Assembly: GCA_003697365.1 (NCBI GenBank)
Contig: RFGP01000157.1
Coordinates: 1 to 36,596, forward strand
Direction: 5' to 3'
DNA from: Chloroflexota bacterium
Lineage (GTDB): Bacteria; Chloroflexota; Anaerolineae; Aggregatilineales; J027
DNA length: 36,596 nt
Positions within the stretch are counted from its first letter, which is position 1. Every line of letters begins with the position of its first letter. Positions 30,631 through 36,596 of the stretch are shown in pieces. The notes under the pieces were generated by a model. That model was not told where the DNA came from. It ran no database searches and saw only the letters and a list, made by a program, of their open reading frames with translations. The position numbers and the translations under genes were made by a program.

Positions 30631-32754
30631 GTGGAAGCAGAAAACCTGAGTATAGGACTAGCATTTTTAGCAGGCTTGGTCTCATTTATCTCACCATGTG
30701 TGTTACCGCTTGTCCCTGCGTACATTGGTTATATGGGGGGACGGGCAACAAATGAAGCCTCTAAAAGCGCTCAACAAAAATTCACTACATTTATTCATGG
30801 CATATTTTTTGTCTTGGGCTTTACATCATTCTTTGTCGGATTTGGGTTGCTTACATCAGCGGCATCATCATTTTTGAACACCATCGGAGTGGACATTCCT
30901 ACATTACTCGTCCGACTAGGTGGTGTAGCAGTTATCTTTTTTGGTTTGTACGTCATGCGAGCACTAGACCCAATTTTTAGCGCTCTATTACGCCTTACAG
31001 ACAAATGGAAAACAGAATTCTTGCCCGCCTTGCTCTTTTCAATTATTGTTGGTGGGTTATTATTCCTATACCTATTTTGGGCTTTTGGGGGTAGCTTTAG
31101 CAACAATTTTAGCACTTGGGAATCGCAACGACCCGCCATGTGGGCAGCGGTGTTATGGCTAGTCTTACTAGCATTATTCCGCAAGCCTCTCAATGAAGCG
31201 ACCAGTTTAGGTGATTTCTGGCATCGCGTCATCGAAACCCTACAAATGGCCCTCACTAGCGATACACGTCGAATGCAAGTGGCTGGGAAAAATAATAGCT
31301 ACGGCGCATCTTATAGTCTTGGCTTAGTATTTTCTGCAGGTTGGACTCCATGCATAGGCCCTGTTTATGCTGCTGTCTTAGCACTCGCTGCTGATGCCAC
31401 CACAGGAAGTTCACTCTTCACCGCAGGTATATTACTCACCGCATACTCAATGGGATTAGGCGTTCCGTTCCTGTTAACGGCTCTCGCCTTCAATCAGTCT
31501 ACAAGTGTGATGAAACGCCTAAAGCGCAACATGCGCAAAGTTGAACTTGTAAGCGGTATGTTATTACTTGTCATTGGTGTGTTGATTATGTCTGGCGGGC
31601 TTACGAACTTGAGTGCTAGTTTTGCCAGCGATGGCGCAGTCGCAGACTTCTCGTTCCGCCTAGAGGCTTGCACAGCTGGTGCATATGAAGGCCGTATTGA
31701 TCTAGAAACCTATCCAACCTGTATAGCAAAAGGTGTAGATAAACTCGAAGACTTATATATAGCTTCCGCTAAAACACAGAGCACCTATACGGGGCCATAT
31801 GTTTTTCAACCTGCCCCCGCTGATGCAAAAGAGGGACTGCTAGTTGGTGACATAGCGCCCAATTTCACGCTCACAACACTTTCAGGGGAAACAGTATCGC
31901 TAGCAGATTATCGTGGACAAGCTGTGTTAATCAATTTCTGGGCAACATGGTGTGGCCCTTGCCGACGCGAAATGCCTGACTTTAATAGCATTTATGCTGC
32001 TGAACAAGATCGGGGATTTGTGGTGCTCGCTATCAACCAAGAAGAAAGTGCTGAACAAGCTCAAGCCTTCGCAGAAGAGTTTGAAGTCTCTTTTCCAATA
32101 TTACTAGATGAAAGTGGAGAAGTTGGACAATTATATCAAGTGCGGGGTTTGCCCACCTCTTACCTCATTGACGGTAATGGCATCATTCGAGCCTTTCATC
32201 CCGGCCTTTTGGCTGCTGCTGATTTATACGAAGACTTGGCACAGTTTATCCCCACTACAGAACCTTTTGCCTTCCAAAATCCGCCAGCTGACGCAATCGA
32301 AGGACTAGAAATAGGGAATGTAGCACCTAACTTCACACTCACAACACTTTCAGGGGAAACAGTATCGCTAGCAGATTATCGCGGACAGGCTGTATTGATC
32401 AATTTTTGGGCAACATGGTGTGGCCCTTGCTTGAGGGAGATGCAAAACTTCAATACGGTTTACTTGAATGAAAAAGAACGCGGTTTCACAATTCTTGCAA
32501 TTAATTTAGAAGAAAGTGTTGAGCAAGCTCAAGCCTTCGCAGAAGAATGGAATATCGCCTTTCCTATTCTCCTAGACGAACAAGGCGATATTTCACAAGT
32601 TTATCAAGTGCGAGGGCTACCCACTAGCTACCTTATCGATGGGCATGGGATTGTGCGAGCTGTTCATGCAGGAATTTTGACTACAAATACGCTTTATGAA
32701 GATTTAGCCCAATTTGAGCGCGGCAACAATACAGAAAATAATGTTCAATCCTAA
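30631..32754 (+). CDS. CcdA/DsbD-like transmembrane thiol-disulfide transporter fused to two TlpA/ResA-type thioredoxin domains
   Basis: LAFLAGLVSFISPCVLPLVPAYIGYMGG and FSAGWTPCIGPVYAAVLALAA (CcdA cysteines); NFWATWCGPCRREMPDF and NFWATWCGPCLREMQNF. Confidence 0.92.
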   Translation: MEAENLSIGLAFLAGLVSFISPCVLPLVPAYIGYMGGRATNEASKSAQQKFTTFIHGIFFVLGFTSFFVGFGLLTSAASSFLNTIGVDIPTLLVRLGGVAVIFFGLYVMRALDPIFSALLRLTDKWKTEFLPALLFSIIVGGLLFLYLFWAFGGSFSNNFSTWESQRPAMWAAVLWLVLLALFRKPLNEATSLGDFWHRVIETLQMALTSDTRRMQVAGKNNSYGASYSLGLVFSAGWTPCIGPVYAAVLALAADATTGSSLFTAGILLTAYSMGLGVPFLLTALAFNQSTSVMKRLKRNMRKVELVSGMLLLVIGVLIMSGGLTNLSASFASDGAVADFSFRLEACTAGAYEGRIDLETYPTCIAKGVDKLEDLYIASAKTQSTYTGPYVFQPAPADAKEGLLVGDIAPNFTLTTLSGETVSLADYRGQAVLINFWATWCGPCRREMPDFNSIYAAEQDRGFVVLAINQEESAEQAQAFAEEFEVSFPILLDESGEVGQLYQVRGLPTSYLIDGNGIIRAFHPGLLAAADLYEDLAQFIPTTEPFAFQNPPADAIEGLEIGNVAPNFTLTTLSGETVSLADYRGQAVLINFWATWCGPCLREMQNFNTVYLNEKERGFTILAINLEESVEQAQAFAEEWNIAFPILLDEQGDISQVYQVRGLPTSYLIDGHGIVRAVHAGILTTNTLYEDLAQFERGNNTENNVQS
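31870..32381 (+). repeat. Internal tandem duplication of the Trx-domain coding segment (unit ~468 nt)
   Basis: Identical 44-nt string ctcacaacactttcaggggaaacagtatcgctagcagattatcg at 31870-31913 and 32338-32381 (offset 468 nt), with near-identical flanks. Confidence 0.9.
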
Positions 32755-33280
32755 GAAGCACACACGGCTTCAAAATTTAGCGGCTCTAGGAGCAATATTC
32801 TCAGTCATAGCTGCTTTCGCTATTCTATGGCTTGCGGGCTTGCCAGATGTGCCACGTTTGGAGCGAGCCCCCGCATTTACTGCACTTACTATCGATGGGC
32901 AACGCCTACAAATTACTGAACAGCCTAATCAGCCTGTTGTGCTTAACTTTTGGGCAACATGGTGTGTGCCATGTGTGACAGAGATGCCACGCTTAGAAGC
33001 CGCTTATCGTCAATATCATATTCAAGACAACTTACTCATTGTTGGTATTAATGCCGCAGAAGATGAAGACACTGTGCGCGCATGGCTAGCAGAACGTGAT
33101 ATAACATTTCCTATTGTGCTGGATCAGTTTCGCGAGTTAGAACGTGCTTATCAAGTTGGCGGAACGTATCCGACCACAATTTTCATTGACAAAGGTGGTA
33201 ACATTGTGCGTGTGCATCGTGGCATATTAACAGAAAAAGCCTTAGCACAAAACTTGGCGAGCATCGGAGTAAAAAATTAA
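32741..33280 (+). CDS. TlpA/ResA-like thioredoxin domain protein, membrane-anchored
   Basis: MFNPKKHTRLQNLAALGAIFSVIAAFAILWLAG anchor; VVLNFWATWCVPCVTEMPRLEAAY; start overlaps the preceding CDS. Confidence 0.88.
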   Translation: MFNPKKHTRLQNLAALGAIFSVIAAFAILWLAGLPDVPRLERAPAFTALTIDGQRLQITEQPNQPVVLNFWATWCVPCVTEMPRLEAAYRQYHIQDNLLIVGINAAEDEDTVRAWLAERDITFPIVLDQFRELERAYQVGGTYPTTIFIDKGGNIVRVHRGILTEKALAQNLASIGVKN

Positions 33281-34818: not shown

Positions 34819-34860
34819 CGCGCCCAAAGCCCCCTGCTTTAGGCATGGGGAGTATGTCAA
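34819..34860 (+). mobile_element. Minimal IS200/IS605-type palindromic end (collapsed left/right end)
   Basis: gcgcccaaagcccc identical to the 1067-1080 left end, joined to ctgctttaggcatggggagtatgtcaa, near-identical to the 1275-1302 right end. Confidence 0.65.
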
Positions 34861-34892
34861 ATACTAGCATATCGGAAAACAGGACAGTTGCC

Positions 34893-35387
34893 ATGCAATT
34901 TTTTAATCAATATTCCTATCTTTGGATGGCCCTAGCCTTTTTAGGAATTGGGCTCATAATGTTGTGGCGCTGGAAAGCGAGACCAGCATGGTTACGCGCA
35001 ACAATAGCCATTGCACTCATTGTTGCTGTAATAGGAGTTAATTTTGCTTTTCGCTATCCAGAGACCAATCTGGAAACAACTCAAGATGTTGAGACCATCC
35101 TTCAGAATGGGCAACCCACATTTTTGATGTTCTACTCTAATTATTGAGTAGGCTGTATGGCGAGCTTGCGCACCGTGCGTGCGCTTCAAGAAGATTTAAG
35201 TGATGAAAGCATCAACGTTTTGCTGATCGATATTCATAGTGATGTCGGAGCTAAACTTCGCCAAGAATATCGTGTCCGTGTAACCCCAACATATATTATT
35301 TTAGACAATGCCAAAACCGAACAGTGGCGTGGCAACACAGTTCCCAGCAAATCAGAGATTTTGCAGCGCGTCCCTTTTGAACCATAA
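34893..35387 (+). CDS. Membrane-anchored thioredoxin-like protein with in-frame TGA at first CxxC position; candidate selenoprotein (UVGC) or nonsense-interrupted gene
   Basis: ORFs ending at 35147 and starting at 35157 share a frame (34893 and 35145 both divisible by 3). Continuous reading: MQFFNQYSYLWMALAFLGIGLIMLWRWKARP...ILQNGQPTFLMFYSNY[TGA]VGCMASLRTVRALQEDLSDESINVLLIDIHSDVGAKLRQEYRVRVTPTYIILDNAKTEQWRGN. Trx fold hallmarks FYxxxUxxC and cis-Pro VTPTYI. Confidence 0.7.
35165..35190 (+). promoter_or_regulatory. Candidate bacterial SECIS stem-loop
   Basis: GCGCAC (35168-35173) - CGTGC loop (35174-35178) - GTGCGC (35179-35184), extendable by CTT/AAG across a 3-nt bulge; loop begins 27 nt after the TGA; G at second loop position. 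Confidence 0.5.
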
Positions 35388-35545: not shown

Positions 35546-36596
35546 GTGCTATCACAAAAAAGCGAATTTACAGTTAGTGATGCCTATCAATTCAATCGTC
35601 GTAACGCCCTACTGTGGATATTATCTCATATTTGGCGTTATCGTCTTTACGCGCTAACAACATTTGTGATGTATGTGCTCACTTATTTCGCATTTTCACA
35701 AAGTTCGGTCTTCTTTGGGCGGGCTGTCGAAGCAGTTGTTACTGACGGAGATCGTACCCAACTTCTGAACATTGCGCTGATCATCCTTCTATTACGTGTT
35801 GCTGATGGTGCATGTAGTCTGATTGGCGGATTAGCAGGAGAAGTAGTTGCTCAAAACTTTGAAGCTGATGCTCGTCAAGAACTTTATGCCAGCCTACTAG
35901 AAAAAAGTCAAACTTTTCATGATCGACAACGTGTGGGCGACATTATGGCACGTGCAACTGAGGATGTTCGACAACTTAACGGGATGATCAGCCCGGGCGT
36001 TAACTTCATCTATGAAACCTTTTTGGGCTTTCTCATTCCGATTACACTGATCGGTTTCATAGATTGGCGATTGATGGCCGTCCCGTTGGTGTTTACTTTG
36101 GTTTACATTGTCGCAGTTAGAGACTACTTCAAGCGCTTAAGTCCAGCAATTACCAACCAACGCCTTGAATTTGGCTTGATGAACGCCACGCTTGAAGAAA
36201 GCATCTCTGGCATAGAAGTGGTTAAAGCGAGTACGACTGAAGATTTTGAACGTCTAAAATTTCGGCGCAGAGCAAAGGCCTTTCGTGATTACTTTGTAAA
36301 GCAAGGACAAGTTGAAGCCGCATATATGCCCATCCTGCTATATGCCATCTCAGTTGGTTTTGTCTTTCTACATGGCGTATCACTCTATCTGGGGCAAGAG
36401 ATTCGTCTGGGCGACTTAATCGCACTCATGGGCGTTTATAATGTGGTCAGCTTTCCGGCTTTTATATCGCTGTTCTCGCTATCATTGCTCCAAAATGGTT
36501 ATGCTGGTGCAAAACGCATCCTTAACATCATCAAAGCCGAGACTGATCTTGACCAAAACGAAAACGGTATAAGCAAAACAGTTGAAGGTGAAATCA
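35546..36596 (+). CDS. ABC exporter (type 1 transmembrane domain), partial at window end
   Basis: GTG start after gaggggg: VLSQKSEFTVSDAYQFNRRNALLWILSHIWRYR...GDIMARATEDVRQLNGMISPGVNFIYE...NATLEESISGIEVVKASTTEDFE...; typical ABC exporter TMD. ATPase domain lies beyond the window. Confidence 0.88.
   Translation, partial: MLSQKSEFTVSDAYQFNRRNALLWILSHIWRYRLYALTTFVMYVLTYFAFSQSSVFFGRAVEAVVTDGDRTQLLNIALIILLLRVADGACSLIGGLAGEVVAQNFEADARQELYASLLEKSQTFHDRQRVGDIMARATEDVRQLNGMISPGVNFIYETFLGFLIPITLIGFIDWRLMAVPLVFTLVYIVAVRDYFKRLSPAITNQRLEFGLMNATLEESISGIEVVKASTTEDFERLKFRRRAKAFRDYFVKQGQVEAAYMPILLYAISVGFVFLHGVSLYLGQEIRLGDLIALMGVYNVVSFPAFISLFSLSLLQNGYAGAKRILNIIKAETDLDQNENGISKTVEGEI

Follow-up and report, generated by a model that had tools for sequence, protein, structure and literature searches.

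A predicted selenocysteine-containing, membrane-anchored thioredoxin-like protein encoded across an in-frame TGA in Chloroflexota

Introduction

On contig RFGP01000157.1 of assembly GCA_003697365.1 (Chloroflexota bacterium), two adjacent open reading frames lie in one frame and are separated by a single TGA, which falls on the position that the first cysteine of a CxxC motif would occupy in a thioredoxin. The locus thus raises the question of whether this TGA is read as selenocysteine (Sec) or whether it marks a decaying gene, an error in the sequence, or a codon that has acquired another meaning. Thioredoxin-type selenoproteins with a UxxC motif are well known (PMC1794560, PMC13188914). We analysed the whole 36,596-nt stretch (hereafter the window), which is contig C166 of a MAG (G000; 3.1 Mb, 95.9% complete, 220 contigs), and set the locus beside its homologs in other genomes of the same class.

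Results

The frame runs for 164 codons from ATG 34893 to a TAA at 35385-35387, and its sole in-frame TGA (35145-35147) is codon 85; with this codon read as U the product is MQFFNQYSYLW...FLMFYSNY-U-VGC-MASLRTVRALQ...VTPTYIILD... (164 aa). The original prediction had described two same-frame ORFs split by this TGA, a TGA at the first residue of a thioredoxin CxxC with the second cysteine intact, a cis-Pro motif downstream, and a readthrough product of about 164 residues; the coordinates and motif were confirmed, the second cysteine codon being TGT, the proline being Pro132 within VTPT, and the whole forming one 164-codon frame. The ORF caller gives the upstream half as 34845-35147, with its start at ATG 34845. 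Because an N-Q-[YF]-S motif four residues past ATG 34893 is nearly invariant in alignments of the homologs, and because AGGA stands just 5' of that codon, ATG 34893 is the likely start of the gene rather than ATG 34845. The features of the gene are as follows.

34893-35387, plus strand: predicted selenoprotein gene for a 164-aa, two-TM, membrane-anchored thioredoxin-like protein with a UVGC active site (frame; Pfam PF13098 and PF00085; homologs)
34914-34970, plus strand: predicted TM helix 1, residues 8-26 (AlphaFold2 model, mean pLDDT 91.6)
34986-35048, plus strand: predicted TM helix 2, residues 32-52, preceded by a loop rich in K and R (AlphaFold2 model; loop charge in the family)
35073-35369, plus strand: thioredoxin-fold domain, residues 61-159, cis-Pro at 132 (Pfam, AlphaFold2, Foldseek)
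35145-35147, plus strand: in-frame TGA, predicted Sec codon, residue 85, first UxxC position (TGA or Cys codon in 61/61 distinct homologs)
35154-35156, plus strand: TGT, resolving Cys, residue 88 (invariant in alignments)

Homologs were present in 42 of 61 genomes (the MAG itself and 60 relatives), and a scan of named genomes with one peptide pattern, which sets no bound on the family, returned 42 loci, each one bearing a Chloroflexota or Anaerolineae-type label; there was no match on plasmids. With duplicates removed, 61 distinct homologs were left, in which the codon aligned to the TGA of the window is TGA (27), TGC (23) or TGT (11) and nothing else, a pattern in line with the proposed exchange of Cys for Sec at exactly this position. 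Cys88 and Pro132 are invariant in the family alignments. Because the aligned codon is TGA in 27 and Cys in 34 of the 61, a chance origin of the TGA is excluded. In G001, a genome of the same genus, this codon is likewise TGA. A sequencing or assembly error, which could be suspected in a single MAG contig, is unlikely because the same TGA is found in independent assemblies from other studies, and we regard its probability as negligible. The scattered nonsense mutations that the original prediction had named as a mark of decay were looked for in close relatives: those that were read each keep a single open frame, and the domain contains no further nonsense codon.

A larger sample gave a similar picture: of 299 genomes of the class, 151 have the family, and among the matches listed most contain one TGA. 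Regions picked from this sample and read had TGA at the first UxxC position in 19 of 20 cases; the exception, L106 (G006:C7:184000-185200), is a degraded copy with its TGA outside the motif, in a genome with no selB over cut-off. L093 (G193:C3:308600-309900), one of the 19, has a frame disrupted after UxxC and is apparently broken. Second TGA codons were considered as further Sec codons and rejected, those in G277, G304 and G175 being terminators and the one in G328 lying upstream of the protein's likely start. We also observed a shorter relative of the family (L028, L036-L038, L040, L041, L080, L095 and L107), whose members apparently have a single TM helix. TGA again occupies the first position of the active site (YSNLUTxC and similar), and most members tested have a GUG-loop hairpin like that of the main family.

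In a tree calculated after masking of the Sec/Cys residue, the Sec/Cys label requires nine changes, eight of them forced by well-supported branches. Where motif and selB status had been verified, all 12 relatives with UxxC and 10 of the 18 with CxxC have selB (Fisher p = 0.007, a value to be taken as a guide only because the genomes compared are related). Within one set of closely related Sec homologs, dN/dS was 0.13-0.28 before the TGA and 0.02-0.14 after it; the low values after the TGA thus indicate that this stretch is under selection as protein.

ORFs of the window seldom end in TGA (2 of 23), as had been stated, and this rarity would also suit a reading of UGA as some standard amino acid through an altered code or a suppressor tRNA. 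Against such a reading, the homologs have only Cys at the TGA codon and never Trp or another residue, TGA still terminates some genes, and tRNA-Sec, selA and selB are present; we consider it exceedingly improbable.

To the original case we can add a hairpin of the bSECIS type. In the published bSECIS model a stem of 4-16 bp carries a loop of 3-9 nt, G occurs within the first two nucleotides of the loop, and the loop lies 16-37 nt after the UGA (PMC13188914). The hairpin in the window, with a 6-bp stem and the 5-nt loop CGUGC, falls within these published limits:

35168-35184, plus strand: bSECIS-type hairpin GCGCAC[CGUGC]GUGCGC, loop starting 26 nt after the UGA, G second in the loop

Only 0.3% of synonymously recoded sequences did as well (p = 0.003). 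Hairpins that conform to the model occur in 24 of the 27 Sec homologs, and 19 of these 24 stand in just the place of the window's hairpin, each centred on GUG (in one case GUC), while their stems differ in sequence (for example GUCCGGC/GCCGGAU, AGCCUAUC/GAUGGGCU, GGCCGCUG/CAGCGGCU). At fixed positions 84.7% of pairs are formed in Sec homologs, whereas Cys homologs form 51.3%; when the Sec set was shuffled synonymously, 60.5% of pairs formed and none of 400 shuffles reached the observed value, and a control with slid arms formed at most 43%. When the 3' arms were dealt out anew, 0 of 5000 arrangements reached the observed pairing, and the same held with near-copies removed. The strict model found no hairpin in the closest homolog, that of G001, nor in the close relatives L013 and L016. 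Plain MFE of a 61-nt stretch did not differ significantly from dinucleotide shuffles (z -0.43); the significance of the hairpin is taken from the codon-aware test at a fixed distance from the UGA in place of plain MFE. An Rfam scan of the window, which did not bear on bSECIS, returned no family over threshold.

The Sec reading implies a genome equipped to make and insert Sec. Of the genes that the original prediction had listed for a search, selA, selB and tRNA-Sec were found in the assembly and selD was not; a lack of SelB and tRNA-Sec had been named as a refutation, and all such conditions that were open to a check here spoke for Sec. The tRNA-Sec scored 75.1 bits (cut-off 47) and has the anticodon TCA (ARAGORN), and selB (342.6 bits) and selA (549.3 bits) adjoin on contig C87. 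No selD exceeded the cut-off in the MAG, the best HMM match (25.9 bits; cut-off 125) lying in a 772-aa ORF, and a search of the genome with the SelD protein of a relative gave no match. In G001, which has selB, selD was not found either, and both genomes are fragmented MAGs. Among 43 genomes with selB over cut-off (relatives, together with the MAG itself), 39 have selD; the remaining four comprise both genomes from the genus of the window and two that are 80-87% complete. The simplest reading is that the missing selD in this genus reflects assembly gaps; that the genus makes Sec via SelA, SelB and tRNA-Sec with a divergent or replaced selenophosphate synthetase and no recognisable SelD appears improbable. 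The selD genes of the selB-positive relatives mostly carry an in-frame TGA of their own. No further selenoprotein was found in the MAG among AhpC/TSA-fold or Fdh-alpha-like proteins.

One could still envision a pseudogene, in which the Cys codon of an ordinary membrane thioredoxin was mutated to TGA (a single change from TGT or TGC) in a gene now decaying, and the failure to find selD would be in keeping with this. Such a history would have to account for the TGA that the ortholog in G001 and 25 further distinct homologs share, for frames that are otherwise open, for low dN/dS after the TGA, for a conserved hairpin and for the association with selB; moreover, decay in this family looks like the degraded copy in selB-negative G006, with its TGA outside the motif. 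We therefore consider a pseudogene very improbable, and neither of the options that the original prediction had left standing, pseudogenisation and sequencing error, is supported given the TGA/Cys pattern of the homologs and the independent assemblies.

The AlphaFold2 model (mean pLDDT 91.6) has two TM-length helices and a thioredoxin fold. Foldseek returned thioredoxins (E about 1e-6) and also the DsbD C-terminal domain, and the Pfam families over cut-off were PF13098 (Thioredoxin_2, the best match) and PF00085 (Thioredoxin); the fold, a [U/C]xxC at the start of a helix and the cis-Pro are traits of the thioredoxin superfamily. An N-terminal TM anchor had been proposed, and a membrane anchor is indeed predicted, formed by two TM helices (residues 8-26 and 32-52) rather than one. 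Across 34 homologs the loop between these helices has a mean of 3.2 K+R and 0.1 D+E. Since positively charged loops lie on the inner side of the membrane (the positive-inside rule), the modelled thioredoxin domain is most likely on the outward-facing side of the membrane.

The neighbouring genes that may bear on function are the following.

30631-32754, plus strand: fusion of a CcdA-type (DsbD_TM) membrane domain with a pair of TlpA/ResA domains (WCGPC in both); may supply electrons
32714-33280, plus strand: membrane-anchored TlpA/ResA-like protein, WCVPC; upstream neighbour
35546-36596, plus strand: ABC exporter, ended by the contig end, downstream; ortholog in the same place in G001

The two TlpA/ResA domains of the first ORF stand in tandem and are closely similar, each with WCGPC. 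Also upstream of the selenoprotein gene lie a DUF2085 protein and then a divergent DUF4919 gene. Behind the G001 homolog, with TGA at the same codon, stands an ABC exporter that shares 54% identity with that of the window, and so the two loci are, as judged from their sequences, most likely orthologs in the same place. The proximity to CcdA is seen in the window only. Elsewhere, a clade composed mostly of Cys homologs (L014, L017, L050-L068, L070, L072) has a conserved gene order, its genes named by eye: a MurJ-like flippase, an MBL-fold hydrolase, the thioredoxin, a phosphoglycerate-mutase-like gene and, further down, a signal-recognition-particle-type GTPase. We rejected this operon as a clue to function, the Sec homologs nearest the window not being in such an operon.

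Discussion

Given the frame, its TGA, the homolog pattern, the hairpin, and selA, selB and tRNA-Sec, all of them read from sequence, the locus at 34893-35387 very probably encodes a genuine selenoprotein in which the TGA at 35145-35147 is read as Sec, as the original prediction proposed. We infer translation, topology, substrate and electron donor. A ribosome would meet UGA at codon 85, where the stem-loop 20-37 nt downstream would recruit SelB with Sec-tRNA(UCA) and Sec would be inserted, giving a 164-aa product whose thioredoxin fold bears the redox site U-V-G-C. The two N-terminal TM helices, with the positive loop between them, would anchor the protein, its thioredoxin domain most likely outside. 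Such a protein is most likely an extracytoplasmic thiol:disulfide (or peroxide) reductase, in which Sec85 would attack the substrate and Cys88 would resolve the intermediate.

For re-reduction one could envision a CcdA/DsbD-type relay, for example through the nearby CcdA-TlpA fusion. This electron donor is a guess and the step tentative, because the further Sec homologs that were examined have different gene neighbourhoods. Alternatively, the selenoprotein might be reduced or used in some other way, for instance as a peroxidase-like or detoxifying enzyme coupled to the ABC exporter. The conserved thioredoxin-exporter gene order in the genus, together with a CcdA neighbour seen in the window only, would favour such a use; however, about 160 bp separate the selenoprotein gene from the exporter, and in most other Sec homologs checked no such exporter comes after the gene, so that this second route is possible but doubtful.

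A membrane-anchored thioredoxin family that is a mosaic of Sec and Cys forms is thus common in Chloroflexota, occurring in about half of the sampled genomes of the class, and standard gene calling cuts its members in two. With at least 8-9 Sec/Cys changes and with gain or loss of bSECIS, the family is a good natural system for Sec-to-Cys conversion, and it suggests that thiol chemistry on the outward-facing side of the membrane of mostly uncultured Chloroflexota can use selenium.

Among known systems, the window protein shares the thioredoxin fold, the place of UxxC and a PF00085 match over cut-off with the Sec-Trx (PF00085, UxxC) of the 2026 prokaryotic selenoprotein inventory (PMC13188914), but it has two N-terminal TM helices and SNYU-x-[GA]-C in place of a WCGPC-type motif; it also does not reach the model of classical soluble thioredoxin (TIGR01068; 21.7 bits, cut-off 96.8). 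Set alongside by description, the Sec thiol:disulfide interchange protein of that inventory (PF13098, UxxC; PMC13188914) shares UxxC and the best Pfam match. Other seleno-thioredoxins, namely SaoT (NF040730), TsoB (NF045694), UGC-type TlpA and WAxxUGC (NF041054), are likewise selenoproteins of the thioredoxin fold; TsoB and WAxxUGC gave weak matches far below cut-off and SaoT none. No NCBIfam model, those of named selenoprotein families included, reaches its cut-off with the window protein, 34 members of the family scanned with NCBIfam gave general thioredoxin-type matches only, and the text of the 2026 inventory (PMC13188914) does not mention Chloroflexota. Judged by NCBIfam and the main text of the published work, the window protein therefore probably represents an unnamed family of a known kind of selenoprotein. 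It resembles the DsbD C-terminal domain (itself among the structural matches), TlpA and ResA as membrane-tethered extracytoplasmic thioredoxin folds, and differs from them in having no W before the motif, in having Sec for Cys, and in standing unfused to CcdA.
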